Shown: positions 1,220-20,667 of the stretch, piece after piece
How the letters are laid out: the number at the start of each line of letters is the position of its first letter
How positions within the stretch are numbered: the stretch's first letter is position 1
Assembly: GCA_903921455.1 (NCBI GenBank)
Contig: CAIXPZ010000242.1
Coordinates: 1-39,630, forward strand
Source of the DNA: an uncultured Verrucomicrobia subdivision 3 bacterium
GTDB taxonomy: Bacteria; Verrucomicrobiota; Verrucomicrobiae; Limisphaerales; UBA11358
Direction: 5' to 3'
DNA length: 39,630 nt
Notes under the pieces: model-generated
What the model was told of the DNA's origin: nothing
The model's database searches: none
Seen by the model: only the letters and a program-made list of their open reading frames with translations
Translations under genes and position numbers: made by a program

Positions 1220-1271
1220 AAAGCCGTGCGGTTACGCCAACCGGGAAATCAACTGCCGCATTAACGGCTTT
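1220..1271 (-). terminator. Candidate terminator of response-regulator transcript
   Basis: On the minus strand AAAGCCGT+GCGG pairs with CCGC+ACGGCTTT, a 12-bp stem. The left arm contains the last sense codons of the response regulator, and its TAA stop falls in the 4-nt bulge. The arm is followed by the short T-rich stretch TAAGCTTTTC. The loop is long (24 nt) and the T-tract is poor, so confidence is modest. Confidence 0.35.
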
Positions 1272-1893
1272 GCTTCCGGGCGAATTTCATGACTGCCTCG
1301 GTCTGGCTGTGGACGTGCAGTTTTTCGTAAATGCGCTGGATGTAGGTGCGCACGGTGCTCAGGCTGATGCCCAGTTCGCTGGCAATTTCCTTGTAAGGAT
1401 GTCCGCGCGACAGGCCTTGCAGCACCTCCATTTCGCGCGCGGTTAGCGATTCCGTCTCCGCCCGGATCGCCGCGTGCGCTTGAAAGGACTGCACCACCTT
1501 CCGCGCAATGTGGCCGGACATTGGCGAACCGCCGTCGTAAACCTCGCGGATGGCCTCGATGATTTTTGCGGGACGATTACTTTTCACCAGATAGCCGAAG
1601 GCACCTGCCGACAACGCCTGAAACACCTGCTCGCCCTCCTCGAAAACCGTCAGCATGATGATCTTCACCGAGGGCGCGGCCTTCCGCAAAATCGAGACGC
1701 AATCAATGCCGCTCATGCCGGGCAAATTGATGTCCATCAGCACGACATCGGGCAGTTGCTGCGGGATGCCAGCGAGCGCATCCTCGGCGTTCGGATAGGC
1801 CTTCACGCAGCGGAAGCCGGACTGGCCTGCGAAATAGCGCACCAAGGTTTCGCGCAGCTTGGCGTCGTCTTCAACGATCGAAACTTTAATCAT
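1261..1893 (-). CDS. LuxR/NarL-type response regulator
   Basis: A two-component response regulator of 210 residues. The receiver domain spans about residues 1-120 with acidic pocket E8-D9-D10, phospho-acceptor D54 (VLMDINLPG), T82 and K104. A LuxR-type helix-turn-helix follows at about 148-205 (LTAREMEVLQGLSRG, then KEIASELGISLSTVRTYI). Phosphorylation of D54 should drive dimerisation and DNA binding. The ATG at 1893 was chosen because the receiver fold begins right after it (MIKVSIVEDD). The frame stays open upstream to a GTG at 2031 and has other ATGs at 1971 and 1953, but that extension has no domain and includes an 18-bp intergenic repeat. The gene follows the propeller histidine kinase on the same strand, so the two are very probably cognate partners controlling the neighbouring polysaccharide genes. 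Confidence 0.93.
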   Translation of the reverse strand: MIKVSIVEDDAKLRETLVRYFAGQSGFRCVKAYPNAEDALAGIPQQLPDVVLMDINLPGMSGIDCVSILRKAAPSVKIIMLTVFEEGEQVFQALSAGAFGYLVKSNRPAKIIEAIREVYDGGSPMSGHIARKVVQSFQAHAAIRAETESLTAREMEVLQGLSRGHPYKEIASELGISLSTVRTYIQRIYEKLHVHSQTEAVMKFARKQSR

Positions 1894-2008
1894 GGCGGAA
1901 TCAAGTGACGTCACCAAAGCAGCGGGCGTCGCTGCCGAAGCTACCACGGCCATGTCGGAAACTGAATTCATTTCAATCCAATCTAACCGCAATGCCGCTA
2001 GTCGCGTA

Positions 2009-2026
2009 GTCGGATGAAACGTGGAC
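2009..2026 (-). promoter_or_regulatory. 18-bp intergenic repeat, copy 1 (candidate operator)
   Basis: GTCGGATGAAACGTGGAC on the plus strand occurs exactly here and at 20812-20829. The ends GTC/GAC form a short inverted repeat. It lies between the kinase stop codon and the regulator start, in the same orientation to its downstream gene as copy 2. A shared CGGTTAG lies downstream of both copies on the minus strand, at different distances. It could be a regulator binding site or a scattered genomic repeat. Confidence 0.4.
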
Positions 2027-2032
2027 GCCACC

Positions 2033-5000
2033 TTATTTCACCGCCGAAAAATTGACGGGGACGATGAGGGAAATGCGGGTGCCGCGACCAGGCTGGCTGT
2101 CACATTCAAAATGGCCGCCGATGCTGCGCAGCCGTTCACGCATATTTTCCAGACCGTTGCCGCCCCCGCTCCGCTTCGGCGGCGAGGCCGGGGCAAAACC
2201 ACAGCCGTTGTCCTCGATGCTGATCCTGATTTCTTCCGCGCCGGGCGCGAGCTGCACACTCACGCGGCTGGCCTTCGCGTGTTTGAGCACGTTGTTCAGC
2301 GCTTCCTTGGCGGCGAGAAAAACTTGGCGACGCACTCCGGTCGGCAAGGTGACGGACGGAATTGCCGGCGGCAAATCGAAGGCGCATTGCACGGCACTGC
2401 CGTCGAAATAGTCCTCCGCATAGCGGCATAGATAATGCACGAGGTCGGCCAGCGTGTCGTTGCGCGGATTGACCGCCCAGACAACCTCCTCGAACGAGCG
2501 AATGGTGTCGCGCGCGGTTTCGGAAATCTCCTGCACGTCGCCGCGCGCGGCGGCGGGAATGTCAGGATGGCCGCCAGCCATTTCAGTCAGGAGCGAGAGC
2601 CGTGTGAGTTTCGCGCCCACCTCGTCGTGCATGTCACGGGCAATGCGCGTGCGCTCTTTTTCGAGCGCGGCCTGCTGCTCAAGCTGCACCATGCGCGCCC
2701 GCAAACGGCGGAATGAAACGTAGCGCACGATCGCCACCACGCTCGCCGTGAAGCCAAATAAAACCAGGCCGCGAAACCACCACGTCTGCCAGAAATATGG
2801 CGCCACCACCACGTTCACCACCGCACCGGTTTCGTTCCAGACGCCGGCGTTGTTGCAGGCCAGCACGTGGAACTGATAGTCACCGGCCGGTAGATGCGGA
2901 TACTTTGCGCTGCGCTGCGTGCCGGCCTCAATCCAGTCCTCGTCAAAATTGTCGAGCCGGTAACGGAACTGGACATTTTCCGGCGAGGCGAAACTCAAAG
3001 CTGCAAATTCAAATTCCAGCTTGCGATGCTGCGGCAAAAGGCGCAGCCCGCTTTTTGACTGGCGCAGATCCGGCCAGCCATTTCCGTTCTCCGTCTGCAA
3101 TGGCGAACGGGCGGCGTAGAGCGCCGCCGTCTTGTCATCCACGGCCACGCGCTCCACCAATACCGGCGGCGGCAGGGGGTTTGCGCGGAGGCTTTCGGGT
3201 TGCACCGCCAGCAAGCCGCTGCGGGTTGCAAACCACAGCCGCCCGTCGCTCCCTTGGCAGACGTTGGGGAAGTTCGCGGAGTTCGGCTGGAAATTGGGCA
3301 GACCTTCGTTGCGTCCGAAGACCAGCGAACGCAAATGCTCCGCGCCGCCTTCCGCCACCGCCGCCAAATCCGCCAGTTGCAATTGAAACAAACCGTGATT
3401 GCCCACGACCCATAATCCGCCGCGCCGGTCCGGCAACAGTTGCGAGGCGAAATCGTCCATCAATCCATCCGCCGTCGTGAGTCGCGAGAATTTCCCGTTC
3501 TTCAACCGCCCCACGCCCGCGCCCGCGAAACCAACCCACAAAGTCCCGTCCGCCGTGGTTTGCAACGCGCGCACTGGCGCACCGCCTGACTCGGTGACCG
3601 CCGTTTCCCGCACGAGCGCCGCTCCGCTGATGCGCAACACCTGGCCTTCCAGCGTGCCAATCCACAACGTTCCATCCGCGCCTTCAGCCATGGCGCGGAT
3701 GGTGCGGTTTTCGCCCGGCAGCTCGTAAGTCGCGACGATTTTGCCCTCGTGCAATTGCTGCAGGCGGCTGGGCGAGCCGGTGACAACCCAGACATCATCG
3801 TTCGCCGCGACAAAAATCAAATGCACGGAACCGTTGTGCAAACCATCCTGCCGCTGCCAGGTGCGCCAGGTGCCGGCGTGAAAATAATTCAGCGTGCGAT
3901 TGCGCGCGCCCACCCAGACACCGCCTTTCTTGTCCGCAGCGACGCAGGTGGCGGCGTCCGCCGTCCAGCCGGATTCCGCGCCGATCACATTCCATTTGCC
4001 GTCGTGGCAGCGGGTCAAAATGCCGCTTTGCGAGGCAACCCAAATCCAGCCCTCGGTGTCCTCGCAAACCGAGGCGACGGATTCAAACGGCAGCCCGGTT
4101 TCGCGCCCAATCAACTCCACCGCGCTGGGGCGGATGAGATCCAAGCCGCCGCCGCGCGTGCCGGCCCAGAGGTTGCCCTCGCGATCCTCATTCAAGCAAT
4201 AAACGGATTGGTGGGAGGTGGGAATCGGTTTCAGCTCGCCGTTTTTGAACCGGAAAAGGCCGTCCGCCATCGTGCCAATCCACAACGCTCCGGCGCGATC
4301 CTCGAACATAATTTGCGGTTCGGCATTCGTGGGCAAGACCGCCAGCTCCACCGGTTCAAGGTGTCCGTCGTATTTCAACAGCCGCGTGCCGTCGCAAAGC
4401 CACATGCCCGACGAAGCCGCGCCACACAGCCGGACGGCGGATTCCTTGCAAAACAAATTGGTTCGCAATTCGCCGCCGCGAAATACGCCGATCTGACCGC
4501 CTTTGGAAAACCATAATTCGCCCGCCGCATCGGTCGCGATCCAGGCGTTGATTCCGGCTGGCCAGCCATTCGTGGTGCCGAACCGGGTCACCTGACCCTC
4601 CTTAATCCGGCAAAGCGTGCTTTGATAAGCAATCCAAACGGCACCGGCATGATCTTCCGCCATGGCCGCGACCCGCTCGGTCGGCAACCCTTCCCCCGGG
4701 CCATAAGTGCGCGCCGCATCCGGCTCCAGACAAATCACTGAACCCGTATCAATCCCCAGCCAGAAGCGGCCGCGCCGGTCGAGCAACATCGTGCGGATAG
4801 ATTTTTTGAGCAGGCTTGGCAGTTGAACCGCCGAAAAACCCGCGCCGTTGAAACGCATCAAGCCGCCGTAAGTCGCCACCCACAAATAGCCGTCCGCCGT
4901 CTGCGCCACGCCCGTCACGCTGTTGTCCGGCAGCCCTTCATCCGTCTGCCACGCACGACATGACCAGTCGGCATGTTGCCCCGCCGCCCCCGCCCGACCG

Positions 5001-5065
5001 GCGGACGAAAACAAAAACGCCCACGCCAGCAAGGCGGCGATGAGTTGTGGCAGACGAGCGGGCAT
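2033..5065 (-). CDS. Periplasmic two-component propeller sensor histidine kinase (Reg_prop/Y_Y_Y/HisKA_3)
   Basis: A 1010-residue membrane sensor kinase. Residues 1-28 are a signal peptide. Residues about 40-625 hold many Reg_prop repeats of the DGxLWVAT/GGLWVVG type (for example 58-66, 258-266, 466-472, 548-556, 607-613), expected to form two periplasmic beta-propellers. Residues about 680-755 match the Y_Y_Y domain (YRLDNFDEDW, YPHLPAGDY). One transmembrane helix lies at about 764-782. The HisKA_3 domain has phospho-acceptor H813 in ARDMHDEVGAKLTRL; the HATPase domain has N924, DNGCGF (952-957) and GNGLENM (969-975). This architecture is the one Bacteroidetes hybrid two-component systems use to sense oligosaccharides, but here the receiver is a separate downstream protein. 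It lies behind lyase and sulfatase genes, which suggests glycan sensing. The exact ligand cannot be read from sequence. Confidence 0.95.
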   Translation of the reverse strand: MPARLPQLIAALLAWAFLFSSAGRAGAAGQHADWSCRAWQTDEGLPDNSVTGVAQTADGYLWVATYGGLMRFNGAGFSAVQLPSLLKKSIRTMLLDRRGRFWLGIDTGSVICLEPDAARTYGPGEGLPTERVAAMAEDHAGAVWIAYQSTLCRIKEGQVTRFGTTNGWPAGINAWIATDAAGELWFSKGGQIGVFRGGELRTNLFCKESAVRLCGAASSGMWLCDGTRLLKYDGHLEPVELAVLPTNAEPQIMFEDRAGALWIGTMADGLFRFKNGELKPIPTSHQSVYCLNEDREGNLWAGTRGGGLDLIRPSAVELIGRETGLPFESVASVCEDTEGWIWVASQSGILTRCHDGKWNVIGAESGWTADAATCVAADKKGGVWVGARNRTLNYFHAGTWRTWQRQDGLHNGSVHLIFVAANDDVWVVTGSPSRLQQLHEGKIVATYELPGENRTIRAMAEGADGTLWIGTLEGQVLRISGAALVRETAVTESGGAPVRALQTTADGTLWVGFAGAGVGRLKNGKFSRLTTADGLMDDFASQLLPDRRGGLWVVGNHGLFQLQLADLAAVAEGGAEHLRSLVFGRNEGLPNFQPNSANFPNVCQGSDGRLWFATRSGLLAVQPESLRANPLPPPVLVERVAVDDKTAALYAARSPLQTENGNGWPDLRQSKSGLRLLPQHRKLEFEFAALSFASPENVQFRYRLDNFDEDWIEAGTQRSAKYPHLPAGDYQFHVLACNNAGVWNETGAVVNVVVAPYFWQTWWFRGLVLFGFTASVVAIVRYVSFRRLRARMVQLEQQAALEKERTRIARDMHDEVGAKLTRLSLLTEMAGGHPDIPAAARGDVQEISETARDTIRSFEEVVWAVNPRNDTLADLVHYLCRYAEDYFDGSAVQCAFDLPPAIPSVTLPTGVRRQVFLAAKEALNNVLKHAKASRVSVQLAPGAEEIRISIEDNGCGFAPASPPKRSGGGNGLENMRERLRSIGGHFECDSQPGRGTRISLIVPVNFSAVK

Positions 5066-5161: not shown

Positions 5162-6802
5162 TTATTTTGCCAACGCCGGCTTTGCGCCTTGCCAGCCATT
5201 TTTCCATTGCGCCATAAGCTGATTGACGAGTTCAGTCTTGGCCGGGTCTTTGGCGATGTTCACGTTTTCCTGCGGATCGTTTTGATGATCGTAAAGCTCA
5301 ACGGCGTCCACCCGCGCATGATCCTTGCGGCCAACCCAAACGGTAAAACGATAGCGGTCGGTGCGCATAGTGTAGCCCATCAAGCCGCCCTTCTGGCCCC
5401 GCGGATACTGGCTGAAGGCCGCCGTTTTCCACGGGCGTTGCGGGTCATCCAGCAGCTGCTTGAAACTCGTCCCTTCAAGATGACCCGGCAGTGGCAGGCC
5501 CGCGAGTTCGGCCAGCGTCGGATAAATGTCCACAAATTCCACGAGCGCGTCCGTGTGCATGCCGGGATGCTTCATACCCGGTGCGGAAAGTATCAGCGGC
5601 GCGTTCACATCGTTCTCCACATTGCTATGTTTGCCCCACGCGGCGTGTTCGCCAAGTTTCCAGCCATGATCGCCCCAAAGAATCACAATCGTGTTGGTGC
5701 GGAGATTGAGCCGGTCAAGTTCCGCGAGCACCCTGCCGATTTGCGCGTCGCTGTAGCTTACGCCGGCGAAATAGGCCTGCTTGAGTTTGCGCGCGATTTC
5801 CGGCGGGATCGGACCTTCCGGCGGAACGTCCTTGTAGGCGCGAATTTCCCCATCGTTCGGATTAACGGCGTAACCGGGCGCGTCTTTTGCGGGAAACGGA
5901 TTTGGCGCGAGCTCAATCTTGGCGGGATCATAAAGATCCCAATATTTTTTCGGCGCCACCCACGGCAGATGCGGCTTGATGAAGCCAACCGCGAGAAAAA
6001 ACGGTTCCGGCTTCTGGCTGATCGCTTGCAACGTCTTCACCGCAAGGTCCGCCACCTTGCCGTCGGTGTAAGTGTTGTCCGGCACGTCGGCACATTCATA
6101 AACCGGGCCGCGAACATTGGCTTTGAACGCTGAATCGCTCTCGCCAGCACCAGCCTTCATGCCATTTTTTTTGACCTTCTTGGCTGCGGCGGTGCCCGTC
6201 GCCAAATTTTTCCCCGGCGCATTAGTCAGCGGCAGCGAATAGGACTCGAGTTTCGTTCCCGCATTGTCACCCTTGTTGCCGTCCGGTTCGCCTTGGACGT
6301 TTTCCTGCCCCAGCGCGACATTCTCCAGCTGCGCGTAAATCGGTGCTTTCGGCGTCTGCCACGGCACCGACCAGGTTTGCGGATCGTCCAGCCCGCCGTG
6401 AAAAATTTTGCCCATGCCCTGAACGAAATAGCCGTTGTTCTTGAAATGCTGCCCCAGCGTGACGACCTCCGGCAGCGCCACGCGGAAATGCGTGACCAAA
6501 TCCCAGACCTTCGTCGTGTCGGGCCTTGTGCCGGTCATCACGCTGGAGCGCGACGGCGAACAAACGGCCTGCTGGCAATAGGCGCGATTGAAAACCATGC
6601 CCGACTTGGCGAGGGCGTCAATGTTCGGACTCTGGATATAATCCTTGCCGTAGCAGCCCAGCTCCGGCCGTAAATCATCCACGACGATGAAGAGGACGTT
6701 GGGCTTCGATTGCGCCGTATCGGCGGCAGCCAAAGGCAGCCCAGCGGCCACAACCGACCAGGCAGCAGCGGCAAGAATGTTCCGTATTGGTTTTGATTTC
6801 AT
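5162..6802 (-). CDS. Sulfatase, iduronate-2-sulfatase-like
   Basis: A 546-residue type I sulfatase that would hydrolyse sulfate esters from sugars. A signal peptide occupies residues 1-27, so it acts in the periplasm or outside the cell. Metal-binding D42-D43 occur in FIVVDDLRPELG. The formylglycine motif is C81-S-P-S-R in AVCSPSRSSVMTGTRPDTTKVWDL-type context, which is typical of the iduronate-2-sulfatase branch. WGDHGWKLGEH and the following KHSN supply further active-site residues. Activity needs a formylglycine-generating enzyme, not encoded in the window. A low-complexity Ala/Lys/Gly insert (about 168-230) lies between the N-terminal strands and the CADVPDN region. It is 37 nt downstream of the duplicated lyase gene in the same direction. 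Substrate could be a sulfated uronate or hexose; the family alone does not decide it. Confidence 0.92.
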   Translation of the reverse strand: MKSKPIRNILAAAAWSVVAAGLPLAAADTAQSKPNVLFIVVDDLRPELGCYGKDYIQSPNIDALAKSGMVFNRAYCQQAVCSPSRSSVMTGTRPDTTKVWDLVTHFRVALPEVVTLGQHFKNNGYFVQGMGKIFHGGLDDPQTWSVPWQTPKAPIYAQLENVALGQENVQGEPDGNKGDNAGTKLESYSLPLTNAPGKNLATGTAAAKKVKKNGMKAGAGESDSAFKANVRGPVYECADVPDNTYTDGKVADLAVKTLQAISQKPEPFFLAVGFIKPHLPWVAPKKYWDLYDPAKIELAPNPFPAKDAPGYAVNPNDGEIRAYKDVPPEGPIPPEIARKLKQAYFAGVSYSDAQIGRVLAELDRLNLRTNTIVILWGDHGWKLGEHAAWGKHSNVENDVNAPLILSAPGMKHPGMHTDALVEFVDIYPTLAELAGLPLPGHLEGTSFKQLLDDPQRPWKTAAFSQYPRGQKGGLMGYTMRTDRYRFTVWVGRKDHARVDAVELYDHQNDPQENVNIAKDPAKTELVNQLMAQWKNGWQGAKPALAK

Positions 6803-6839: not shown

Positions 6840-9281
6840 TCATTTCTGATCATTCGTCAGGTGCGTTGTATTTTCGCCATCCAGATTCGCGCTGATTTTG
6901 TGCGACTTGGATAATCCTGAATCTTTCAACCATAAAACCGGCTGGGTGATAGCGATGTTGCGCTGAATTTCCTCATCGGCGGGATCGGGCGGAAGTTTCT
7001 GCCAGAGCTGCAAATAATTTTGCTCATCAAAGGCGAGGCCGGCAAAAAGCAACGCCGCCTGCCGGCGCGGCCAGCCCTCCCACGCCTGCACATCCGGCTT
7101 GAGCGGCCACTTGGACTTGTCGGCGAGGAACGGTTCCAGATACGCGACGGCTTTGCGGATGCCACGGCCGTCGGGCAATTGAAAATTCCACAAGTTGTCC
7201 GTCGGCGTCGAAAGCACCTGACAAAGCGTGGACATGTTATCGAGTTGAAATATCGAGTAGGCATAAGGCTTGGTGCGTTTCAACTCGGCTGGAAAACTTC
7301 CATCCGCCGCCATCTGATTTGGAACAAAGACTTCCTTGAACTGCCGCCGGCCCTCGGCAAGTTTCACTTCGTCGCCGATGAACTTGGCAAACACCGCCAC
7401 TTGCAGCCAGAACGCGACGGCGTGATTGTTTTTTGCGGCGGCTTCGTCGCGGCCGTTCTTGCTCGTCATCATCCACTCGGTGTATTCGCGAAACCATTGC
7501 TTCATACCCGCACATGTTTCCACCGCAAACGCCGGCGATTTTTGCATCGCGTCAATGGCCGGCGGCACTTCGATGAGATGCAGCGTGTCAATGATGCCGA
7601 TGCCGCGTCCGGGTGAAACCCCTGGAATCGCCTGCGCATAACGCAAATGCGGATTCATCCGCGTCGCCGGGTCGAGGAAAAATACGCGCAGCAATTCCGC
7701 CGCCTTACCGGCATAACGATCTTCATTGGTGATTTTGTAAGCCGCGCCCAGCGCGGCCACCGCATCGCGCAACTGGCGGAGCGCCAGCCGGTGTTGATTA
7801 AAATTTTCCGGGTTCGTCTGGCCGTCCCGTTGGATGTAAGGCAGGCCGTTCGTTTTCATCGGGTCAGGCCACCAATAATCGCCGTTGGAATAATAATCAT
7901 TCAGTCCGCCTTCGCTGAACTTGGCGGGATATTTCGTGATGCTGATCGGCGCCAACGCGAGCGCGGCTTCGGCCGTTTTCAAGATTCGCTCGCGGTCAAT
8001 GGTCGCCAGGTCAAAATTTTCACCGGCTGACGCGGACAAGTTGCGCTGGGGCGAAATCGGAGAGAGCAGTTGAAGCCGCTCCTTGGCGCCGGCGGGAAAC
8101 TGGGCGAGAATCTTTTCAAACGCCGGCTCATGATAAATCGTTCCTGCCTGCCGCAGTTGCGGAGCAAAGTCGGCACGGTCAAAACTCTTGATCTGTTCGT
8201 ATGGCCACTTTTTCGACGGGTCGGCAACGTAAGGCAACAGAAAATCCATCGCCGCCGCCAGCGCATATTTGCCATTGGCCAGCCGGCAATGCCACAAATC
8301 AACGCCCGCGTGTTCAGCCAGCGTGGCCAGCGTGAACAGCGCTTCGAGATTGAAGTGCGAGTAGCCCAGTGCCGCCGTCCGCGTCAGTTCCAGCGGCTGC
8401 CGTCCATCCGGTTCAATCTGCACGGCGATGCGTTTTTGTTTGGCAGCTTCGGCGATTTGTTTGGCTACGTCAGATTTGCCCAGCACGAGCGCCAGTTCGA
8501 TCGCCTGCACGTCATACCATGTCCCGTGATTGTTGCGCGAACCGGCTTCCTCGCGGCCCGGCTTGCTGGTGAGCAGCCAGTGGAAATACGTCTCCAGCCA
8601 CGTTTTGAAATCGGCCCGGTCTTTTTCTGTCCACGCCGCGGAATTCGCCAGCAACTGCGCCGCGTCCGCCGCCACCGCGAGGTTGCGGCCTTCGAGTATG
8701 CCGGTGCCGCGCCCGGTGTTTTCGCCCGGCACGGCCTGGGTGAAATTCATGTTGGGATTCATCCGCGTCGCCGGATCAAGAAACCAGACGCGGAGAAATT
8801 TTGCCGCCTTCGCCGCGTAAGCCTCGTTGCCGGTGAAATAATAAGCCAGCGCCAGGGTCTCGACATTTTTGGCCATCATCCCGATCCGGGCGTGATCGAA
8901 GGCTTCTTCCCGGCTTTCAGGATTCACTTTGCCATCGTGCCGAATGTAAGGCAGTCCATCCGGCTTTTTCGGGTCGGGCCAAAAATAGGGCGCGATGCTC
9001 ATGTAATCATGTTTGTCCCCGCTCGGCGGAAGTTTGTCCTTCTCCATCACTGACGGCGGAGCCGCTTCCAACGCCTTGGCCGCCGCCCGCACCAGCGCCT
9101 TGAATGCCGGCTGCAACGACTCGTCGTGCGCGGCCAGCCGCGCCTTCACTTCCGGCAACGCACCGGGGCTGACGGCAAAATAGCGCGGCGAATTATCGTC
9201 GGCCTTGGCCAGTCCGCAGGCGGCAAGAACAAACCAAATAAAGGCGATCCGCCTTGCCAAATGGGTGAGCAGCTTCTTCAT
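6840..9281 (-). CDS. Tandem-duplicated alginate-lyase-family protein (two PF05426-like domains)
   Basis: An 813-residue secreted protein (signal peptide about 1-27) made of two homologous alpha-toroid lyase domains, roughly residues 35-410 and 425-785. Matching landmarks recur in both halves: W-P-D-P (101-104 and 471-474), GLPYI (109-113 and 479-483), DPATRMNP (169-176 and 537-544), an N-N-H motif (250-252 and 618-620) and a Tyr in GYSHFNLEAL (Y307) and AYSIFQLDNM (Y675). In alginate lyase A1-III (PL5), N-N-H and a Tyr in an equivalent context form the catalytic site, so both halves may be active by beta-elimination on a uronic acid polymer. The first half has NNHGTWYDVQ, the form common in PL38/PF05426 proteins; the second has NNHAVAFWLQ. 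The usual family member has a single domain. The start overlaps the GH2 stop by 4 nt (ATGA), so the two are co-translated. Confidence 0.88.
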   Translation of the reverse strand: MKKLLTHLARRIAFIWFVLAACGLAKADDNSPRYFAVSPGALPEVKARLAAHDESLQPAFKALVRAAAKALEAAPPSVMEKDKLPPSGDKHDYMSIAPYFWPDPKKPDGLPYIRHDGKVNPESREEAFDHARIGMMAKNVETLALAYYFTGNEAYAAKAAKFLRVWFLDPATRMNPNMNFTQAVPGENTGRGTGILEGRNLAVAADAAQLLANSAAWTEKDRADFKTWLETYFHWLLTSKPGREEAGSRNNHGTWYDVQAIELALVLGKSDVAKQIAEAAKQKRIAVQIEPDGRQPLELTRTAALGYSHFNLEALFTLATLAEHAGVDLWHCRLANGKYALAAAMDFLLPYVADPSKKWPYEQIKSFDRADFAPQLRQAGTIYHEPAFEKILAQFPAGAKERLQLLSPISPQRNLSASAGENFDLATIDRERILKTAEAALALAPISITKYPAKFSEGGLNDYYSNGDYWWPDPMKTNGLPYIQRDGQTNPENFNQHRLALRQLRDAVAALGAAYKITNEDRYAGKAAELLRVFFLDPATRMNPHLRYAQAIPGVSPGRGIGIIDTLHLIEVPPAIDAMQKSPAFAVETCAGMKQWFREYTEWMMTSKNGRDEAAAKNNHAVAFWLQVAVFAKFIGDEVKLAEGRRQFKEVFVPNQMAADGSFPAELKRTKPYAYSIFQLDNMSTLCQVLSTPTDNLWNFQLPDGRGIRKAVAYLEPFLADKSKWPLKPDVQAWEGWPRRQAALLFAGLAFDEQNYLQLWQKLPPDPADEEIQRNIAITQPVLWLKDSGLSKSHKISANLDGENTTHLTNDQK

Positions 9282-11734
9282 TTTAATTTTTCCACGGTCA
9301 GAAATTCGGTTTTAATTCCCTCGCTGGCAATGCTGGCCACGGCGGCAGAGCCGGTCAGTTGAAGACTGATTTGCGCCCGGCCATTGTAAAGCTGCACCAC
9401 CCGCGAACCGGTGGACGTGCCAAGATTGTCGAGCAACCGCCCATCGCCGGTTAGCCCAAAGCGAACGATGCTGGCCGCGTCGAGGCACGGCACGCCGGCT
9501 TGGTCGAACACGCGCGCTTCAATCGTGACGACATCGTTGCTCCGCGATATTTCACTGAGCGTCAATTTCGACGGCTGGCTCCAGGACGCAGTTTGATACG
9601 CGACCGGAATTTCATCGGCAACTTCTGCGACCGCAGATTTTCCAACGGCGCGCAGTGTGTTCGCGCCTTCGTTCAGCTTGACGATCCAGCGCAGACCGGC
9701 GGCCGGAAAATCCGCGCTGTTGCGCTGCTTGATTCCCGCCGAGACGCCGTTGACAAACAACTCCACCTCGCGGCAGTTGGAAAAAACCTTCACCAATTTT
9801 TCCTCGCCGGCTTTGCCCCAGCGCACCGGCCAGGTGTGCCCGTAAATGTGAATCATCGGCTGATCCGCCCAATAACTTTGGAAGACATAATAACTTTCCT
9901 TCGGCGTGCCGTCGCGCTCGACGACGCCTTTTTGGTTCACGCGCGGCACCGGATTTTCCGGCCGCAGCGGTGTGGCGAAGTCCTTGAAAATCCACATTGC
10001 CGCGCCGGTGAGATTCGTCATCGTCGCCTGCTCTTTCAGATGCCAGTCAAACAGATTGATGATGTAGCTTTCCGACCAGTCGCCGTCGCGCGAGGCGCGC
10101 GCCTTGCCGCCGGTGGCTTTGTAAGCCTTGCCCACTTCCGCCGTCCCTTCGCCGGTGGCGACTTGACCGAGAAATTTTTCCGGCGCTTCCGAATGCCGGC
10201 GCGCATGGCTGTCGCCGCCGTATTCGGCGTGGATGAAATGCGGCGTATCCTGGATGGCCTTTTCCACGGCGCTGCGATACTCGATGTAACGTCCGCCATA
10301 CCAGCCGGCCCAGATGCTCGGCGAATAAATATCCGGGATGTCCTTGCAGAAATCGCAGCGGCGAATCACCGTCTGGCGCGACGGGTCAAGTTGATGGGAC
10401 TGCGTGTTCAATTTCGTCATGAAGGCGTGGATGGCGTCTTTGTCGAAAGTTTCAAAATCACCAGGCCAGTCATTCTCGTTGCCGAGTCCCCAAAGAATGA
10501 TGGACGGGTGATTGTAATGCTGGTCAATCATCGCTTGCTGTATATCCAACGCCTGCTGTTGATATCGTTCGCCACCCAGTCCGCCGCGACACCACGGAAT
10601 TTCCTCCCACGCGAGCAGGCCGAGTTCATCGCACAGATCCAGCACCAGCGGTGCTTGCTGGTAATGGCCGAGCCGCACAAAATTCGCGCCCATGGCTTTC
10701 ATCGCCTGCAAGGTCTGACGCACGACTTCGTCCGGCACGGCGGCGGCCACGCCCGCGTGATCTTCATGATAATGCGTGCCGCGCAACTGCAACCGCTCGC
10801 CGTTCAGCTTGAACGGGCCATGCTCGACCCACGCAACGGAGCGAATGCCGAATTTGTCGGCCACGGACTGTTCGCCTTGCGCCGATTTGATGGTGACGGC
10901 GCAACTGTAAAGTGCCGGTGATTTCGGCGACCATAATTTTGGGGAAATAATTTCAAACGCGGCGAGTTCTCTTTCGCCCGGCCCGGCAGCCATTTTATGG
11001 GTCGAAGTTAAAACAAGGTTGCCTTGCGGGTCGCGGACTTCGACAGCAAGTTCAACCTCATCTTTCAATGAATTCGGATTGTAAAGCCGCGCCCGGATTT
11101 TCACCGTGGCTTTGCCATCGGCGGTAAGCGTCGGCTCGATATGCACGCGCGCCAGCGAAATTGCCGGAACATAAACCAGGCTGACGTGGCGATAAAGTCC
11201 GCCGTAGCGGTTAAAGTCGCTCAAGTCGGACGGGATGCTCTCGGCATCGCGCGAGTTATCACACTCCACAGCCAACCGGACTTCACCGCCGGCACTTGCC
11301 ATTGCGGCCGCGTCGGTGATGTCCACGTCCCATTGGTCATAGCCGCCGACGTGTTCGCCAACTTTTTTCGAGCCGACAAAGACCTGCGACTTTTGACCCG
11401 CACCGTCGAAGTGCAGTAAGGTTCGTCCATTGGGAAATGGATTGACCACCTTGAGCCGCGTGCGATACCAGCCCGGCCCCTGATAATAACGCACATCGGG
11501 ATCAACCGAGTCGCGCGCATTGAAGCAATGCGGCAGGGTGACCGGCAGCCAGTTGACATTGTCGGTGGCCTTGTCGCCGCGCCAGATTTCCCAAACGCTG
11601 CCGAGCGAGCCCTGATAAAATTCCCAGCCGTGGTCGAGCCGCTGAATCGTCTGCGCGCCAGCCATGCCGGCGACGGCCAGAAATAATCCAGCAGCGGCAA
11701 GGACAAGCTGTCGATGGGAAAAAATATGTTTCAT
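9278..11734 (-). CDS. GH2 glycoside hydrolase (beta-galactosidase/beta-glucuronidase-like)
   Basis: An 818-residue exported glycosidase. A signal peptide (1-27) is followed by the GH2 sugar-binding jelly roll (about 30-190), an Ig-like domain (about 192-300) and the TIM barrel (about 302-600). In the barrel, WGLGNEN places the acid/base at E420 and FIHAEYGG places the nucleophile at E504, as in retaining GH2 enzymes. The C-terminal part (about 625-815) looks like DUF4982 plus a further Ig-like GH2 domain. A Shine-Dalgarno-like AAGGGA lies just upstream of the ATG. It follows the hydrolase gene with 9 nt between and overlaps the lyase start by 4 nt. In this context it would trim non-reducing-end sugars from oligosaccharides made by the lyases. 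Galactosidase, glucuronidase and mannosidase specificities cannot be separated here. Confidence 0.92.
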   Translation of the reverse strand: MKHIFSHRQLVLAAAGLFLAVAGMAGAQTIQRLDHGWEFYQGSLGSVWEIWRGDKATDNVNWLPVTLPHCFNARDSVDPDVRYYQGPGWYRTRLKVVNPFPNGRTLLHFDGAGQKSQVFVGSKKVGEHVGGYDQWDVDITDAAAMASAGGEVRLAVECDNSRDAESIPSDLSDFNRYGGLYRHVSLVYVPAISLARVHIEPTLTADGKATVKIRARLYNPNSLKDEVELAVEVRDPQGNLVLTSTHKMAAGPGERELAAFEIISPKLWSPKSPALYSCAVTIKSAQGEQSVADKFGIRSVAWVEHGPFKLNGERLQLRGTHYHEDHAGVAAAVPDEVVRQTLQAMKAMGANFVRLGHYQQAPLVLDLCDELGLLAWEEIPWCRGGLGGERYQQQALDIQQAMIDQHYNHPSIILWGLGNENDWPGDFETFDKDAIHAFMTKLNTQSHQLDPSRQTVIRRCDFCKDIPDIYSPSIWAGWYGGRYIEYRSAVEKAIQDTPHFIHAEYGGDSHARRHSEAPEKFLGQVATGEGTAEVGKAYKATGGKARASRDGDWSESYIINLFDWHLKEQATMTNLTGAAMWIFKDFATPLRPENPVPRVNQKGVVERDGTPKESYYVFQSYWADQPMIHIYGHTWPVRWGKAGEEKLVKVFSNCREVELFVNGVSAGIKQRNSADFPAAGLRWIVKLNEGANTLRAVGKSAVAEVADEIPVAYQTASWSQPSKLTLSEISRSNDVVTIEARVFDQAGVPCLDAASIVRFGLTGDGRLLDNLGTSTGSRVVQLYNGRAQISLQLTGSAAVASIASEGIKTEFLTVEKLK

Positions 11735-11743
11735 CAGCGTCCC

Positions 11744-12691
11744 TTAATTTTTTAACAAGCCCAGGCTGCCGAGAAAGGTTCCGACATCCTCATGCGTTTT
11801 TTTGTCCGCGGCCTTGCCGGCTTCACCATATTTGCTGGAGTTGTAGGAATGCCCCAGCCCTTCAAAAGTCACCAGTTCGCAGCGGTTGCTGTTGCTTGCC
11901 AACTTGTCCTTAAAGGCAACTGAATTGGCATAAGGCACCGTCTTGTCCGCCGTGGCATGAAAGACGATGGTGGGCGGCATCTTGTCCGGCATCTGATCCG
12001 GCACCGAACAGGCAAGCGCCCGCGCGGCGTCGCCGCCAAATCGTTTGGGGCCGCCATAGCCGCCCGCCTTGGTGTCAGTCACGGGATTGAGCAGAACCAG
12101 CGCCGCCGGCAAAATCCTGGGCGCGGGATCATCTTTTCCCGGTCCCGCAGACGGGATGGCCGTCCACGCGGCGACATGGCCGCCCGCTGAACTACCTTGG
12201 GAAATAATTTTCCGGGAATCAATTCCCAGTTCGCCCGCATGCTCTTCCACCCAGCGCACCGCGGCGCGACCGTCGGCAACGCAATCCTCCGGGGTTCCGC
12301 CAAAGCGGGTGCGCGTTCGATAATCGGGAGCGATGCCGACCAGTCCCTTGCCCGCAGCCCACTTCGCCCAGCCAATGCTGTGCAAGGGTGTGCCCGAAAC
12401 CCAGCCGCCGCCAAAAAAGCCAATCAGGCAGGGCCGCTGATCGCTCTTGGCCCAGCCCGCCGGCTTGACCACGAACAGGCGCAATTCAGTTTCGCCGACC
12501 TTGCGGAAGACGAACGCTTCGCTGCCCGGAATTGAGAGCGGTGTCACCTCCGCTGTTTGATCAGCGGAAGCCGGAGCCGTGACTTTCCGGTCTTCTTGCG
12601 CTGGCAAAGCCGGCCGGCCGGCCAGCAGCAAGAGAATGATTCCTAAAGCCAAGGTCAGCCTTGTGAGTTTGTTTTTTCGCGGCGCTTTCAT
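11744..12691 (-). CDS. Secreted alpha/beta hydrolase (esterase-like, BD-FAE family)
   Basis: A 315-residue alpha/beta hydrolase with an N-terminal signal anchor (about 10-31). The nucleophile elbow G166-S-S168-A-G, acid D249 (HATADKTVP) and base H281 (GLGHSYN) form a complete catalytic triad in the usual order. The oxyanion-hole motif that normally reads HGGG/HGGxW is FFGGGWVSG here, so its His is replaced by Phe. The ATG at 12691 was chosen because it begins the signal peptide; the frame stays open upstream only by overlapping the lyase gene. The protein resembles acetyl-xylan esterase/lipase-like enzymes of glycan loci, so it may remove acetyl or feruloyl groups from the polymer attacked by its neighbours. 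It is 22 nt downstream of the PL7 gene and 9 nt upstream of the GH2 gene. Confidence 0.88.
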   Translation of the reverse strand: MKAPRKNKLTRLTLALGIILLLLAGRPALPAQEDRKVTAPASADQTAEVTPLSIPGSEAFVFRKVGETELRLFVVKPAGWAKSDQRPCLIGFFGGGWVSGTPLHSIGWAKWAAGKGLVGIAPDYRTRTRFGGTPEDCVADGRAAVRWVEEHAGELGIDSRKIISQGSSAGGHVAAWTAIPSAGPGKDDPAPRILPAALVLLNPVTDTKAGGYGGPKRFGGDAARALACSVPDQMPDKMPPTIVFHATADKTVPYANSVAFKDKLASNSNRCELVTFEGLGHSYNSSKYGEAGKAADKKTHEDVGTFLGSLGLLKN

Positions 12692-12713: not shown

Positions 12714-15700
12714 TTACGGTGCGGCCAGCCGATAGAAGCGGCTGTGGAAATTGGTAAAGCTGGCATCGGTGAAAATATAAACTCCATTGCTGCCGGTGAC
12801 GTTCGTGCCAATGGGCAACCAGACCGGATCCGACAGATTGGTCTTGGCCTGGACCAGATAACTAGCGAAGGGCGTGCCGGTGTAGTTGATTTGGAAAGTC
12901 TGATTGGCCACCAGGGCACCGGCGATGGCTGGAGGAAGCTTGATGGCGAGACTGGCGACCGCACTCGTGACCGAGCCGGAAGCATTGGTGATAACCACGG
13001 AGTAACCGCCCACGCTGGCGGCCTGAACATTGCTCAAAGTCAGCGTCGGATTGGTGGCTCCGGCGCGGTTGGTGCCGTTGAACTGCCATTGGTATGCGAG
13101 CGTGGGATCGCCGGTGGCACCAACGATGAAGGTGGCGTTGCTGCCGGTAAGCACAGCCTGGGTTACGGGTTGATTGGTAATAGCGGGCAAAGTGGCGACG
13201 TATTCCGACGGCAGTAGAATCGAATAACCCTTGGTCTGCAAGAATTGGATAATTCTCTGAAATTCCAGCAGGTGCGGCGCGTCGAAATAGGGCGGATGAA
13301 ATTGCAGCGCCACCGGTCCTGCCGGCCCGCCGGGATAAGTGGCAATGAAGTTCGTGGAGTTAGGCAGGCCCGTGCCGTCAGCTTCGGAAATAATTTTCAC
13401 CGCCGCCACGCTGGCATTCAAATAACTTCTAGCGGTGGGGACGCTGGAGGTAAAAAACAGTCGCAGGGCCGGCATGGCATTGATGACGGCGGCGGTGTTC
13501 GTGTCAAAACCGTTGTAAGGTGTGCCAAAGGCAATGACATCATGGTCCAGAGCCTTGGCCAAGGCAGCTTGGGATTGTCCCAGATGTTGCTGCATATAGG
13601 CCAGACCGGAGCCTTCGTATTCGGAAACCACCTGTCCGCCGGCGTTCGTCCATTGGGTGTGATCCCAGGCGTGATCCCAGAATTCCACATCGCCCACGGC
13701 TTCCTGCGACTGCATCCATTGGGCGATAAGATTGGAATTGCTCCCGACAATGTTGGTGCAAATGACGCCGATCCCTACTTTGACGCCCAAGCTTCGGGTA
13801 ACTTGGAGAAAGTTGGTCCACTGCTGGCCATAAGTTAATTCTCCCCGAAAATCATCCGCCTTGATGATGACAACTTTGTCCGGATTCGCGGCCTGATTGA
13901 AAGTGACAACATCCGTGGCGGTCGCAGCGGTGCACCCACCCGGCTGGGTTGTCGTAAAAATTAAAGTGACCGTGGTTCCTGCATCCGCCGCTGCCGGCGT
14001 GTAAATCGTGGTGAGCGCATTAGTGCTTGAAAAAGTCCCGGTGCCACTCGAAGTCCAAGCGCCGCCAGTGGCCGAACCGCTCAAGCTGGCGGTGACATTC
14101 ACCGACATGGTGCGATAGACGGATTGAGCCGAAACATTCAAAGCGACAACCGGACTAGCCACCGTCAAAGTGGCCATCGGCGAAGTGGAAGTTCCGTTGC
14201 CGCAGTCGGAGGTTACATCGCAGGTGTATTGGTCACCATTGGCCGGCGATGAAACAACCAAGCTGTTGCTGGTGCTTAAGATGGTGCCCGAACCAACTTT
14301 CTTCCAGGCATAAGTGAACGGTGCCGTGCCAGCACTGGGAGTTTCCGTAAGTGTGATGGACTGACTTGGGCAAATCGTCAAGCCGCCGGTGCCGCCGCCA
14401 TTTCCCACCGGCATGGCTGCCGTCGCGGCAAGACAACCACTCACCGTGTAAGTCAGCACCACTCGGCCGGTGGCACCACTGCCGCCGGTTTTCACGCCAT
14501 TGGCGGATGAACCTTTGGCCCCACCACCGCCACCACCAGGCGCAATCCCATTGGTGCCATTGGCGCCGGTGCCCGCCACACCGGTGCCGCCTGCGCCGCC
14601 AACCGTGATGACTCCAGTCCCACCCAAACCCGGAGTATTGGTGATTGAACTGGCGTTACCGCCGGCACCCGAATCTCCAGCCCCACCGCCGCCGCCGCCG
14701 CTAACATTGGTAGGACTAGTGATGCCAGCGCCCCCATTTCCTCCGGCCAATACGAAGTCGCCGATACTGCCAGCCGTAGCCAAGCCGGCGGTGCCACTTC
14801 GGCCGGTGGTGCCAATGTTAATTATAGTTACCCCCCCGCCGCCACCTTTCGCCAGAATATTGGTTAAAGGCGAACTAACTATGTTAAACCATGAGTCACC
14901 ACCGCCAACCGCGGCCAGATCGTTGGTAGAACTAAGCCCACCCGAACCTACATTGATGTTATAATTTGTTCCCGGTATAACTGCGTAAGCATTCAGCCGG
15001 GCATACGACCCACCACCGCCGCCGCCGGCAAAAGCGTTTCCAGCGTTGGTTCTCTGCGCGCTACCACCCGCACCACCCGCGCCCCAACATTCAATTTGAA
15101 CCGAGGTAATACTATCAGGACAAATCCAATTCGTGCTGCCAGCATTGGTGAAAGTGATGGTTGCGACAACGGACAGAGTTGCGATGGCACTGGTCACCGA
15201 GCCGAAGTTGTTCGTAATAACCACCGTATAATTGCCGGAACTGGCACCGGACACATTGGTTAGGTTAAGGAAAGCGTTGGTCGTGCCAGCGAGATTGTTG
15301 GTGGCATTGAACCACCAGCGGTAATTTAATGGCGGCGTGCCGGTGACGCCAACGGCAAAGCTGGCATTGCTTCCGGCATTTACGGTCAGGCCGGCTGGCT
15401 GGTTGGTGATAGCTGGCGGAAGATTGATGGTCAATGTGGCAACAGCGCTGGTGACCGCGCCATATTTATTATTGATCACCACAAAATAGTTTCCGGCATT
15501 AGTGCTTTGAGTGTTGGTGATGGTAAGTGAACTGCTGGTGGCCCAAGAAAGGCTGGTGTTAGTATTAAACCACCAATGGTTGGTCAGCGGTGCAGTGCCG
15601 TTTTCGCCGACGACAAAGGTCGTGTTGCTGCCGGCAGTGGTGCTCTGGCCAATCGGCTGGCTCGTAATGACCGGCGGGAAATTGCCGGTCAAGACCACGA

Positions 15701-16790
15701 CTGAACTGGTGACGGCATAAAAACCGGGCGTGCTGTCACTCACGACCGCAGAATAGTTTCCCAGATTGGCACCGGTAAGATTAGATAGAACCAGCGAAGC
15801 ATTGGTGGCACCAGCCAAGCTGTTGCTGCCATTCAGCCACCATTGATAACTCAACGCGCCGTTGCCAACGGCACCGAGGTTGAAAGCGGCACTGCCGCCG
15901 GCCACGCCCACCCAGTTGGTTGGCTGGCTGGTAATGCTCGGTGCGTGATAAGTGGTCAGCGAATAGAAAGCCACCCGCGCGCCATCATTGGTGCAGCCAC
16001 AGGTGTTGTCGGTCTGGTTATAGTCGCCGGCTTTGAAATAAACCGTGTTACTTGAGGTGATATCCCAGTTTGTCGCGACATGACCGAGGTAATTAGTGCC
16101 GCTGAAAAGGTTCCATGAGTTGGTGACATTGTTGATGCTGACCTTCAGCACGCCATTCACTACTGACATCGTGTAACCGATGGACTTATTCAACCCGACG
16201 TTGGAACCGGATATGAAAGTCGTGCTGAAACTGCTGGAAAGATTTCCGTCCAAATTAACATTCGCATAAATCTTTTGGTTGGGGAGATCAAACATGATCA
16301 TGGTCAGTTCATTGTTCGCACTCGCGCTGCCATCCGGCTTGGTGTTGGGTTCATGGATCTGGCCGATGCAAACCTTCCCGGTGTCGGAAGAAACATTTGA
16401 AACCACGCAGGTGGCGCTCAAATAGTTTGAGCCATAGACCGTCCAATTCACGCTGCTATCATTCGGGTTAAGCAGTTCGCGCAACTCGCTGCGCGGGTGG
16501 GTGGAGCCGCCGGTCGTGGCCCCGTTATCCGGCGCCCAGAAGACCATCGCCCCATCGCCGCCGGTGTAAAAATAGGCATTGGTAAATCCCGAAACAAGCT
16601 GGGCGGTGGAAGCCGAATCCACCGAACCGGCGGCACCAGTAAGAATGTTGTTACTCGTCGGCAGTTGCAGATACCAATGGCTTAAATCAAAGTTGCTGCC
16701 CGGCGGCAGACTCGGATTCAACGCCCAAGCGGAAGCTGAGGCGAAGCCAAAAACAGCGGCCAGGCTTAAATGTAAAAATAGTATCCGCAT
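12714..16790 (-). CDS. Giant PL7 alginate lyase fused to Ig-like, Gly-rich and NodB-like deacetylase domains
   Basis: A 1358-residue exported multidomain protein. After a signal peptide (1-23), residues about 30-283 form a PL7 alginate lyase: RSELR (100-104), QIH (144-146) and YFKAGxYNQ (251-259) are the three family motifs and hold the catalytic Arg, Gln, His and Tyr. Three Ig-like domains follow (about 285-368, 373-456, 459-542), then a Gly-rich domain (about 545-785) and PKD/Ig-like segments (about 786-968). Residues about 971-1200 resemble a NodB/CE4 polysaccharide deacetylase: IIKADD (D979, D980), HAWDH (H1040, H1044), FGTPYNG and QFHPPYFD (H1165). One more Ig-like domain and a C-terminal module ending FYRLAAP complete it. 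Lyase activity is strongly predicted; deacetylase activity is inferred from the spacing of metal and active-site residues. Ser/Thr/Asn/Gly-rich composition differs sharply from the neighbouring enzymes. Confidence 0.92.
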   Translation of the reverse strand: MRILFLHLSLAAVFGFASASAWALNPSLPPGSNFDLSHWYLQLPTSNNILTGAAGSVDSASTAQLVSGFTNAYFYTGGDGAMVFWAPDNGATTGGSTHPRSELRELLNPNDSSVNWTVYGSNYLSATCVVSNVSSDTGKVCIGQIHEPNTKPDGSASANNELTMIMFDLPNQKIYANVNLDGNLSSSFSTTFISGSNVGLNKSIGYTMSVVNGVLKVSINNVTNSWNLFSGTNYLGHVATNWDITSSNTVYFKAGDYNQTDNTCGCTNDGARVAFYSLTTYHAPSITSQPTNWVGVAGGSAAFNLGAVGNGALSYQWWLNGSNSLAGATNASLVLSNLTGANLGNYSAVVSDSTPGFYAVTSSVVVLTGNFPPVITSQPIGQSTTAGSNTTFVVGENGTAPLTNHWWFNTNTSLSWATSSSLTITNTQSTNAGNYFVVINNKYGAVTSAVATLTINLPPAITNQPAGLTVNAGSNASFAVGVTGTPPLNYRWWFNATNNLAGTTNAFLNLTNVSGASSGNYTVVITNNFGSVTSAIATLSVVATITFTNAGSTNWICPDSITSVQIECWGAGGAGGSAQRTNAGNAFAGGGGGGSYARLNAYAVIPGTNYNINVGSGGLSSTNDLAAVGGGDSWFNIVSSPLTNILAKGGGGGVTIINIGTTGRSGTAGLATAGSIGDFVLAGGNGGAGITSPTNVSGGGGGGAGDSGAGGNASSITNTPGLGGTGVITVGGAGGTGVAGTGANGTNGIAPGGGGGGAKGSSANGVKTGGSGATGRVVLTYTVSGCLAATAAMPVGNGGGTGGLTICPSQSITLTETPSAGTAPFTYAWKKVGSGTILSTSNSLVVSSPANGDQYTCDVTSDCGNGTSTSPMATLTVASPVVALNVSAQSVYRTMSVNVTASLSGSATGGAWTSSGTGTFSSTNALTTIYTPAAADAGTTVTLIFTTTQPGGCTAATATDVVTFNQAANPDKVVIIKADDFRGELTYGQQWTNFLQVTRSLGVKVGIGVICTNIVGSNSNLIAQWMQSQEAVGDVEFWDHAWDHTQWTNAGGQVVSEYEGSGLAYMQQHLGQSQAALAKALDHDVIAFGTPYNGFDTNTAAVINAMPALRLFFTSSVPTARSYLNASVAAVKIISEADGTGLPNSTNFIATYPGGPAGPVALQFHPPYFDAPHLLEFQRIIQFLQTKGYSILLPSEYVATLPAITNQPVTQAVLTGSNATFIVGATGDPTLAYQWQFNGTNRAGATNPTLTLSNVQAASVGGYSVVITNASGSVTSAVASLAIKLPPAIAGALVANQTFQINYTGTPFASYLVQAKTNLSDPVWLPIGTNVTGSNGVYIFTDASFTNFHSRFYRLAAP
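14436..15158 (-). repeat. Gly-rich low-complexity coding segment
   Basis: This stretch inside the PL7 gene encodes residues about 545-785, with repeated GGGGGG, GGAGG and NGxNG runs. It resembles the glycine-rich domains found in verrucomicrobial and planctomycetal exoproteins. The DNA repeats are codon-driven (GGC/GGT/GGA) and not a separate genetic element. Confidence 0.75.
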
Positions 16791-19867: not shown

Positions 19868-19893
19868 GGTGAGTGGTGTTTTAGGATTGTGGT

Positions 19894-20667
19894 TTAACGG
19901 TTTTCCCAAAGAGTTTTTGTCCAAGTGATGCTGGCCGTGTTGAAAGAAACCGTGCGGGCGCTGGAATCGGCATAAAGGACATTCATGCCCTTGAGCGAAC
20001 TATGGCGAAAATCCAGATAGGTTCTCGTGCTGGACACTGGATTTGCCAGATCAGTTTGAGCTCCGCCACCGGCTGCCAACAACCACTGGGCGCTGGTTTG
20101 ACAGGAATTATCACCGGGAGTCTTTTGCTTGCCCTCCACAACCACGATGGTTTCCGTCGGTGAATTGACAATGGGCGTCGCTTTTCTGGCGAAACCAGAA
20201 GTCAAACCGTTGCCGGGAAGATTAAGACCAAGCATCGTGCCCGAACAGGAGTAAGTTAGCTCTACATTGGTTGACCCCATGTCCACAAAGACGGCACTAG
20301 CACAGGCAAATACCGGGTTGGCGATACTGGTGATCTTGGTTCCTTTTTGCGGCAAATAAGCGCCCACTTCCTTCGGCCAAATGACGGAGTTGCCGCTCGC
20401 GTCCGTGGTGGAAGCGGTCGGGTAGAGCCCGCTGTTGTCATCCACATAAAGGGCCAAGGCGAGACCAATCTGCTTATCATTGGAGACACACGAAATTTGT
20501 TTGGCTTTTTCCTTGGCCTTCGCCAGCGCCGGCAGCAGCATCGCCGCCAGAATCGCGATAATCGCGATTACCACCAGCAATTCAATCAGGGTAAAACCGG
20601 TTTTGCCACCGGACTTATAAAGGTCATTCATCCGTCGATCCGAGCATGCGCTATAATCTGTCTTCAT
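19894..20667 (-). CDS. Pseudopilin-like prepilin-type N-methylation protein
   Basis: A 257-residue protein with a type IV prepilin signal: basic leader ending GGKTG, cleavage before [20 protein letters not shown] and a long hydrophobic helix continuing [14 protein letters not shown] prepilin peptidase should cut after G24 and methylate the Phe. The C-terminal part ([21 protein letters not shown]) matches the H-x-DG-like end of the large verrucomicrobial/planctomycetal pseudopilin family. Such proteins are thought to belong to type II secretion or type IV pilus-like machines; that role is inferred. An alternative ATG at 20631 would give a shorter leader. It is the first gene of the minus-strand block and lies 26 nt before the PATR gene, so it may help export or display the large exoproteins behind it. 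Confidence 0.9.

Follow-up and report, generated by a model that had tools for sequence, protein, structure and literature searches.

A single gene was found to join a polysaccharide lyase domain of family PL7 to a domain of the NodB fold in an uncultured Verrucomicrobia subdivision 3 bacterium. The stretch analyzed, here called the window, comprises positions 1 to 39,630 of contig CAIXPZ010000242.1 (assembly GCA_903921455.1), and the gene lies on its reverse strand, where the frame 12714-16790 encodes 1358 amino acids with zero internal stops. From the N- to the C-terminus, the protein consists of the PL7 lyase, Ig repeats, a Gly-rich domain, the NodB-fold domain, another Ig repeat and a tail. 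This is a real and conserved combination of known enzyme types, apparently undescribed; it makes plausible functional sense, and its NodB active site is of an unusual kind. Judging from its sequence, the product is fairly probably a secreted two-enzyme protein acting on a decorated polyuronate, with the PL7 domain as the lyase and the NodB domain as a deacetylase.

An earlier note on this DNA had described one 1358-residue polypeptide in which PL7 and NodB-like domains are connected through Ig and Gly-rich domains, and this was confirmed by the intact open reading frame (ORF) and the Pfam matches. The conservation of the fusion was examined in proteins of about 0.55-1.75 times the length of the query. 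The search with the NodB region yielded 33 long relatives, 10 of which also contained PL7. Six of these fused relatives (P0002, P0003, P0009, P0012, P0013, and P0014) were collinear with the query, each aligning in one stretch of 1352-1378 columns with 62-70% identity, and P0004, P0005, P0006, and P0017 aligned to it piecewise. When the PL7 region was used instead, 137 long relatives were obtained, and the NodB domain was present in 10 of the 120 listed, the identical ten. A chimera or an artefact of gene calling was rejected, because 10 other proteins hold both domains, six of them collinearly. The GC content at third codon positions (GC3) was similar in the PL7 part (0.665) and the NodB part (0.637), and lower in the Gly-rich part (0.525). 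Hydrophobic N-termini were recognized by eye in nine of the ten fused relatives, P0002 appearing to be cut short, and the tails of nine of the ten carried FYR or FFR close to the C-terminal end.

The lyase domain scored 146.9 bits with PF08787, against a curated cut-off of 29.7, and therefore belongs to PL7. The motifs of this family are R(S/T)E(L/V)R, Q(I/V)H and YFKAGxYxQ, and all three were found near the N-terminus, as the earlier note had claimed. The closest solved structure was the alginate lyase A1-II' (2cws), with 108 bits; the solved glucuronan lyase 7nde reached 55 bits. The motifs were retained in the ten fused relatives, with the exception of QMH in P0004-P0006, QMK in P0017 and RSEFR in P0006. 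Among the 14 rows listed, the His of QIH was replaced by Lys (QMK, QIK) in the PL7 domains of P0017, P0060, and P0066, which may differ in specificity; P0066 additionally has a PL6-type domain (PF14592). Another pairing of a lyase with a decoration-removing enzyme was observed in seven of the 120 long PL7 proteins listed (P0099, P0105, P0106, P0107, P0109, P0110, and P0114), where PL7 was joined to a sulfatase (PF00884, PF16347; precomputed Pfam).

The evidence for the NodB domain was of a different kind. PF01522 matched residues 969-1106, scoring 17.6 bits when the full-length sequence was searched and 21.9 bits with the domain cut out, so that the family match anticipated by the earlier note was present, under the gathering cut-off of 23.1 bits. 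In alignment A1, 17 of the 18 members (window included; E up to 10) matched PF01522, the best with 4.3e-8. The cut-off was passed by four of the ten relatives scanned, all of them stand-alone (L012, 38.6 bits; L013, 37.2; L008, 31.1; L014, 28.2), and the NodB domain of L010 was likewise above it. The predicted structure of this part was confident, with a predicted local distance difference test score (pLDDT) of 95.2, and resembled CE4-type structures, so the NodB-type fold that had been proposed was obtained. The first Foldseek match was the CE4 esterase domain of the xylanase Xyl (7ax7), and the first VIA-align match was 3qbu, which we take to be HpPgdA.

Sequence-profile methods contributed less. 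When profile A2 was compared by hhalign with the canonical CE4 frame of locus L043, KADD/TFDD, NHGWDH/NHTFQH and FGSPYN/FRPPVG were aligned, and A1 aligned the latter two (probabilities 1.2 and 2.8%); A2 against L046 gave 3.5%. The NodB assignment rests on the fold and the PF01522 matches, because this comparison with CE4 was weak. Searches of solved structures gave zero matches with A1 (E up to 1) and nothing useful with A2 (E up to 10), where one deacetylase, 7y51, appeared at E 1.4, and the NCBIfam scan gave zero matches for this domain. The search of short proteins with A2 returned 160 relatives, and several of the 120 listed were annotated as polysaccharide deacetylases at source.

The active site was analyzed in 181 distinct rows (184 before removing identical rows) of domains above 60 bits. 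D979, D980, H1040, H1044, and H1165, located where the earlier note had put them, were all kept in 173 of the 175 rows with letters at all five positions, a conservation that is in part due to selection, since the rows were gathered by similarity to the family. The residues of the Asp-His-His metal triad (D980, H1040, and H1044) are thus present by sequence, as is the motif-5 His, the presumed acid. Further near-invariant positions were E1036, W1038, W1042, E1057, N1093, D1096, E1136, and Q1163. The divergence described earlier, FGTPYNG in place of RxPY, was borne out, the motif-3 Arg having become Gly. The two rows that break the five positions were P0254 and the second NodB copy of a 2562-residue protein with two NodB domains (L006:5660-13348, +). 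In that copy, a metal Asp is changed from D to A and a metal His from H to Y, and it looks dead.

The motif-3 Arg is thought to activate the CE4 base (PMC12022489). PelA is also without this Arg, yet active, and its motif-1 His seems to substitute (PMC12022489). This residue, H526, stands two residues ahead of the base D528 (PMC12022489), the same relative position that K977 holds ahead of D979. By analogy, the invariant Lys977 probably takes over the activating positive charge of the lost Arg. On its predicted model, the domain is placed in the NodB-fold superfamily and is not filed as CE4, because the motif-3 Arg has given way to Gly and the base is preceded by an invariant Lys; the PF01522 score below the gathering threshold is a further departure from CE4. 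The domain probably functions in a CE4-like manner.

According to the mechanism that we propose, the PL7 part would use beta-elimination to cleave 1,4-linked uronate chains. With a bound divalent metal, Asp979 as the base and His1165 as the acid, the NodB part would strip acetyl groups, most likely O-acetyl, off the same polymer, and Lys977 would probably supply the activating charge as the His of PelA would do. Deacetylation would then let the lyase finish the polymer, together with the enzymes encoded alongside it (PF05426 lyase, sulfatase, esterase and GH2 glycosidase). The positions of the domains, of the motifs and of the genes in question are collected in the table.

Table. Positions of the fused gene, its domains and motifs, and the neighboring genes in the window.
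Feature	Positions	Strand	Basis
Whole gene, 1358 residues, multidomain (PL7 lyase and NodB-fold domain)	12714..16790	-	intact ORF, collinear homologues
Signal-peptide-like N-terminus, residues about 1-23	16722..16790	-	judged by eye
PL7 lyase domain, residues 34-282	15945..16691	-	PF08787 E 1e-42; solved relative A1-II' 2cws E 4.3e-30
PL7 motif RSELR, residues 100-104	16479..16493	-	aligned to RSELR of A1-II'
PL7 motif QIH, residues 144-146	16353..16361	-	aligned to QIH of A1-II'
PL7 motif YFKAGDYNQ, residues 251-259	16014..16040	-	aligned to YFKAGNYVQ of A1-II'
Three Ig-type repeats, residues about 284-541	15168..15941	-	PF13927, PF07679
Gly_rich_2 domain, residues 548-781	14448..15149	-	PF21722 E 5.1e-17
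Linker, residues 786-966, no confident family; weak Ig_2	13893..14435	-	PF13895 21.2 bits, cut-off 27
NodB-fold domain, residues 967-1200	13191..13892	-	PF01522 match and predicted fold
Motif 1, K977-A-D979-D980: invariant Lys, presumed base Asp, presumed metal Asp	13851..13862	-	K977 180/180, D979 180/180, D980 179/180
Motif 2, H1040..H1044, presumed metal ligands	13659..13673	-	H1040 179/181, H1044 181/181
Motif 3 position, FGTPYNGFD, residues 1088-1096, Gly for CE4 Arg	13503..13529	-	G1089 179/180, N1093 177/179, D1096 176/179
Motif 5, H1165, presumed acid	13296..13298	-	176/176 letters
Ig repeat, residues 1202-1269	12984..13187	-	PF13927
C-terminal tail, residues 1285-1358	12717..12938	-	no family match in Pfam scan
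Alpha/beta-hydrolase esterase, GSSAG, likely ATG at 12691	11744..12691	-	PF20434; solved esterase 7bfn E 1.6e-53
GH2, beta-glucuronidase-like	9278..11734	-	Pfam; 6d7j E 5.6e-297; NCBIfam equivalogs all below cut-offs
Tandem PF05426 lyase, probably PL38-like	6840..9281	-	PF05426 in two stretches; 3nfv E 2.1e-96, 8bdq E 3.1e-73
Sulfatase with CSPSR motif	5162..6802	-	PF00884; 6hhm E 6.7e-100
Sensor kinase with Reg_prop and Y_Y_Y domains, probable regulator	2033..5065	-	Pfam
LuxR-type response regulator	1261..2031	-	Pfam

The fused gene heads a run of genes in the same direction, followed by the esterase, whose likely start lies 22 bases past its stop, the GH2 enzyme, the tandem PF05426 lyase, the sulfatase, the sensor kinase and the response regulator. 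The best solved relative of the GH2 enzyme was the beta-glucuronidase 6d7j; in NCBIfam, the beta-galactosidase model scored 290 bits and the beta-glucuronidase model 283, both far below cut-off. The PF05426 protein was placed, probably correctly, in PL38 from its solved relatives, one of which (3nfv or 8bdq) is presumably BoPL38. The sulfatase also matched iduronate-2-sulfatase (E 1.3e-84), and its nearest NCBIfam model, choline-sulfatase, was below cut-off. A locus of an uncultured Verrucomicrobia subdivision 3 bacterium, L003, has a contig that starts inside the fused frame, which is identical at 686 of 689 positions to the C-terminal part of the fused P0014. The enzyme run is conserved in this genome, where the esterase, GH2, PF05426 and sulfatase sequences that follow the fused gene were 73, 71, 69/60, and 74% identical to those of the window. 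The two PF05426 domains stand in tandem in the window; the L003 genome has one of them fused to GH2 and the other by itself. Upstream of the fused gene, the frame 16970-19924 (-) encodes a 984-residue protein with PATR repeats and Big_3_5, in which Pfam shows no NodB domain; the PATR proteins P0007 and P0008 do carry one. An apparently unrelated run of DUF58, BatA/VWA, DUF4159 and HEAT-repeat thioredoxin genes occupies 22057-33895 (+).

The distribution of the NodB family is patchy. Scanning genome contigs yielded 27 loci, of which 24 were titled as Verrucomicrobiota/Kiritimatiellota groups, two came from gammaproteobacterial metagenome-assembled genomes (MAGs) and one from a Hydrogenedentota MAG; no PL7 was found in these 27 loci, L003 starting within the fused frame. 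At E up to 1e-10, the family was present in at least 7 of the 320 genomes belonging to the order of L003, and at E up to 1e-20 in at least 28 of 387 genomes sampled across its phylum; these counts are lower bounds, since no more than 7 or 8 candidates were scored in each genome. Neighbors were scanned with Pfam in the loci other than L013, L015, and L017 to L027. A stand-alone NodB gene of L008 is flanked by a TonB receptor and, on the opposite side with one gene in between, by an esterase of the type present in the window (62%). In L014, the NodB gene adjoins a PF05426 lyase; a GH29 gene adjoins it in L007 and is two genes away in L009. In a Kiritimatiellae MAG (L010:9917-11575, +), NodB is fused to a GH29 alpha-L-fucosidase, with heparinase-type, GH28 and sulfatase-like genes nearby. 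The double-NodB protein of L006 follows a kinase and a regulator that share 46% and 43% identity with their counterparts in the window. The L069 and L073 frames had zero Pfam family matches. Between the NodB and esterase genes of L008 lies a 685-residue protein (L008:10851-12908, +), secreted as judged by eye, for which zero Pfam families and zero matches to solved structures were obtained; it is a candidate new carbohydrate enzyme. In P0015 and P0019, and in 9 of the 33 long NodB relatives by the precomputed Pfam list, one protein combines the NodB domain with an acetylesterase of SASA type (PF03629), and so with a second esterase fold.

The history of the fusion was analyzed on two trees. 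In the NodB tree (59 rows; protein rows of at least 50 bits, locus rows of at least 75 bits and more than about 180 residues), the fused label needs six changes, at least four of them forced by starred branches, and in the PL7 tree (55 rows of at least 150 bits and more than about 200 residues) it needs five, at least four of them forced. A single ancestral fusion is therefore unsupported. Because both trees force at least four changes of label, it is more likely that modules were lost, gained or exchanged more than once.

The gene run fits a polymer of uronic acids, and the proposed substrate is an O-acetylated uronan, with a glucuronate-containing polymer slightly favored over alginate; these two possibilities are versions of the same explanation. 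That the target is O-acetylated bacterial alginate, with the NodB domain as an alginate O-deacetylase opening the chain for a PL7 alginate lyase, we regard as rather unlikely. The resemblance of the PL7 domain to A1-II', and its distance from 7nde, speak for alginate, and acetylation shields this polymer from most lyases (PMC4444821). Nevertheless, a beta-glucuronidase-like GH2 enzyme and a sulfatase adjoin, neither of which is needed for alginate, and zero heparinase-type (PL17-like) families were found among the 23 window frames scanned with Pfam. Since PL7 subfamily 4 is reported to contain glucuronan lyases only (PMC7911691), membership of PL7 alone is no proof of alginate. Hence the acetylated alginate named in the earlier note could not be established as the substrate, and a polymer containing glucuronate is no less likely, because the run holds the GH2 enzyme, the sulfatase and the PF05426 lyase. 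Such a polymer, for example O-acetylated glucuronan or a sulfated chain that resembles glucuronan or a glycosaminoglycan, is a serious possibility to which we give somewhat less than an even chance. PL7 and PF05426 enzymes would cut it, GH2 would trim glucuronate, and the sulfatase and deacetylase would strip the decorations. The match of GH2 to 6d7j and of the sulfatase to iduronate-2-sulfatase agree with it, as do the best matches of the PF05426 protein, PL38 including reported alginate, glucuronan and hyaluronan lyases (PMC9029943, PMC13027841), and the same enzyme set kept in L003. Nevertheless, the PL7 domain is closer to alginate lyases than to the sole solved enzyme named glucuronan lyase, and the GH2 and sulfatase specificities are drawn from similarity, with all NCBIfam scores below cut-off.

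Several observations weigh against a lyase and a deacetylase acting together. The esterase that adjoins the fused gene could be the deacetylase instead. Neither the fused PL7 nor the fused NodB domains form a single clade, and the closest PL7 domains among the matches listed, P0034 and P0035 (80-81% identity), are without NodB, so that the PL7-NodB pairing is not obligatory. The scanned neighbors of NodB genes in L002, L011, L012, and L016 (one, one, one, and two genes) were not carbohydrate genes. Gly replaces the CE4 motif-3 Arg in 179 of 180 rows, and HpPgdA, which is without this Arg, failed to act on N-acetylated polysaccharides under the assay conditions used (PMC12022489). Three of the six best Foldseek matches were forms of BA3943, a CE4 pseudoenzyme that also took ranks 6, 8, and 9 in a further structure comparison, and the fold is therefore uninformative on activity. 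A dead, substrate-binding NodB domain, an option that the earlier note had left open, would fit these folds, the sub-threshold PF01522 score, the lost Arg and the decay seen in the second copy of L006. We consider it very unlikely, given all five catalytic positions kept in 173 of 175 rows. It also seems improbable, though less so, that the domain acts on some other compound (an amino sugar, peptidoglycan or an imidase-type substrate), as an N-deacetylase or a C-N/amide hydrolase, the fusion merely tethering two secreted functions: NodB domains are fused to PL7, SASA esterase and GH29, they sit in polysaccharide gene runs, and the first Foldseek match is a CE4 esterase domain. A lyase-deacetylase acting on a decorated polyuronate is the reading that we retain.

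Should the two domains work on one and the same chain, a single secreted protein would overcome the acetyl groups that block many uronan lyases and would supply a NodB-fold O-deacetylase for uronans. A broader proposal, that these conserved secreted fusions contain an undescribed carbohydrate esterase family of the NodB fold, a true uronan O-deacetylase in which an invariant motif-1 Lys (K-A-D-D) plays the role of the motif-3 Arg, is put forward only tentatively, as more doubtful than not. The family, being without this Arg and having an invariant Lys, is a ready test of the flexibility of base activation in NodB-fold esterases, and the fusion is a concrete lead on the use of decorated uronans by Verrucomicrobia.

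No description of a PL7-NodB fusion was found in the open-licence literature (subscription papers may hold one), consistent with the earlier note, which knew of no enzyme described with this domain order. The joining of a depolymerase or an epimerase to a deacetylase is already known in principle from Xyl and PsmE, as is, in principle, the notion that a deacetylase can open the way for its partner enzyme. In the CelAly-type fused alginate lyases (PMC13235733), which are also multimodular and combine an alginate lyase with another catalytic domain, the partners are glycoside hydrolases or a second lyase, and the word esterase is absent from the main text of that paper. The solved chain of A1-II' (237 residues) aligns with the lyase domain over almost its full length, sharing the RSELR, QIH and YFKAG motifs, but it is a lyase alone. 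PelA (CE21) is likewise a NodB-like deacetylase without the motif-3 Arg, for which a motif-1 residue two before the base has been proposed as the replacement (PMC12022489). It differs in having His instead of Lys and D-x-D instead of adjacent D-D, and in acting on a GalNAc polymer within a biosynthesis system (PMC12022489). PsmE of Pseudomonas syringae (PMC4444821) contains in one protein an alginate-modifying domain and a deacetylase acting first, epimerization requiring prior acetyl removal by its SGNH module, the sole example of a uronan O-deacetylase met in the literature. Here, a lyase takes the place of the epimerase, and the deacetylase-like module models as a NodB fold, unlike the module of PsmE, which is predicted to be of SGNH type. 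A close architectural parallel is Xyl (GH11-CBM36-CBM36-CE4; PMC9165906), where an N-terminal chain cutter is followed by intervening modules and a C-terminal metal-dependent esterase of the NodB fold; its linkers differ, and it is a glycoside hydrolase on xylan, whereas the protein described here would be a lyase on a uronan.

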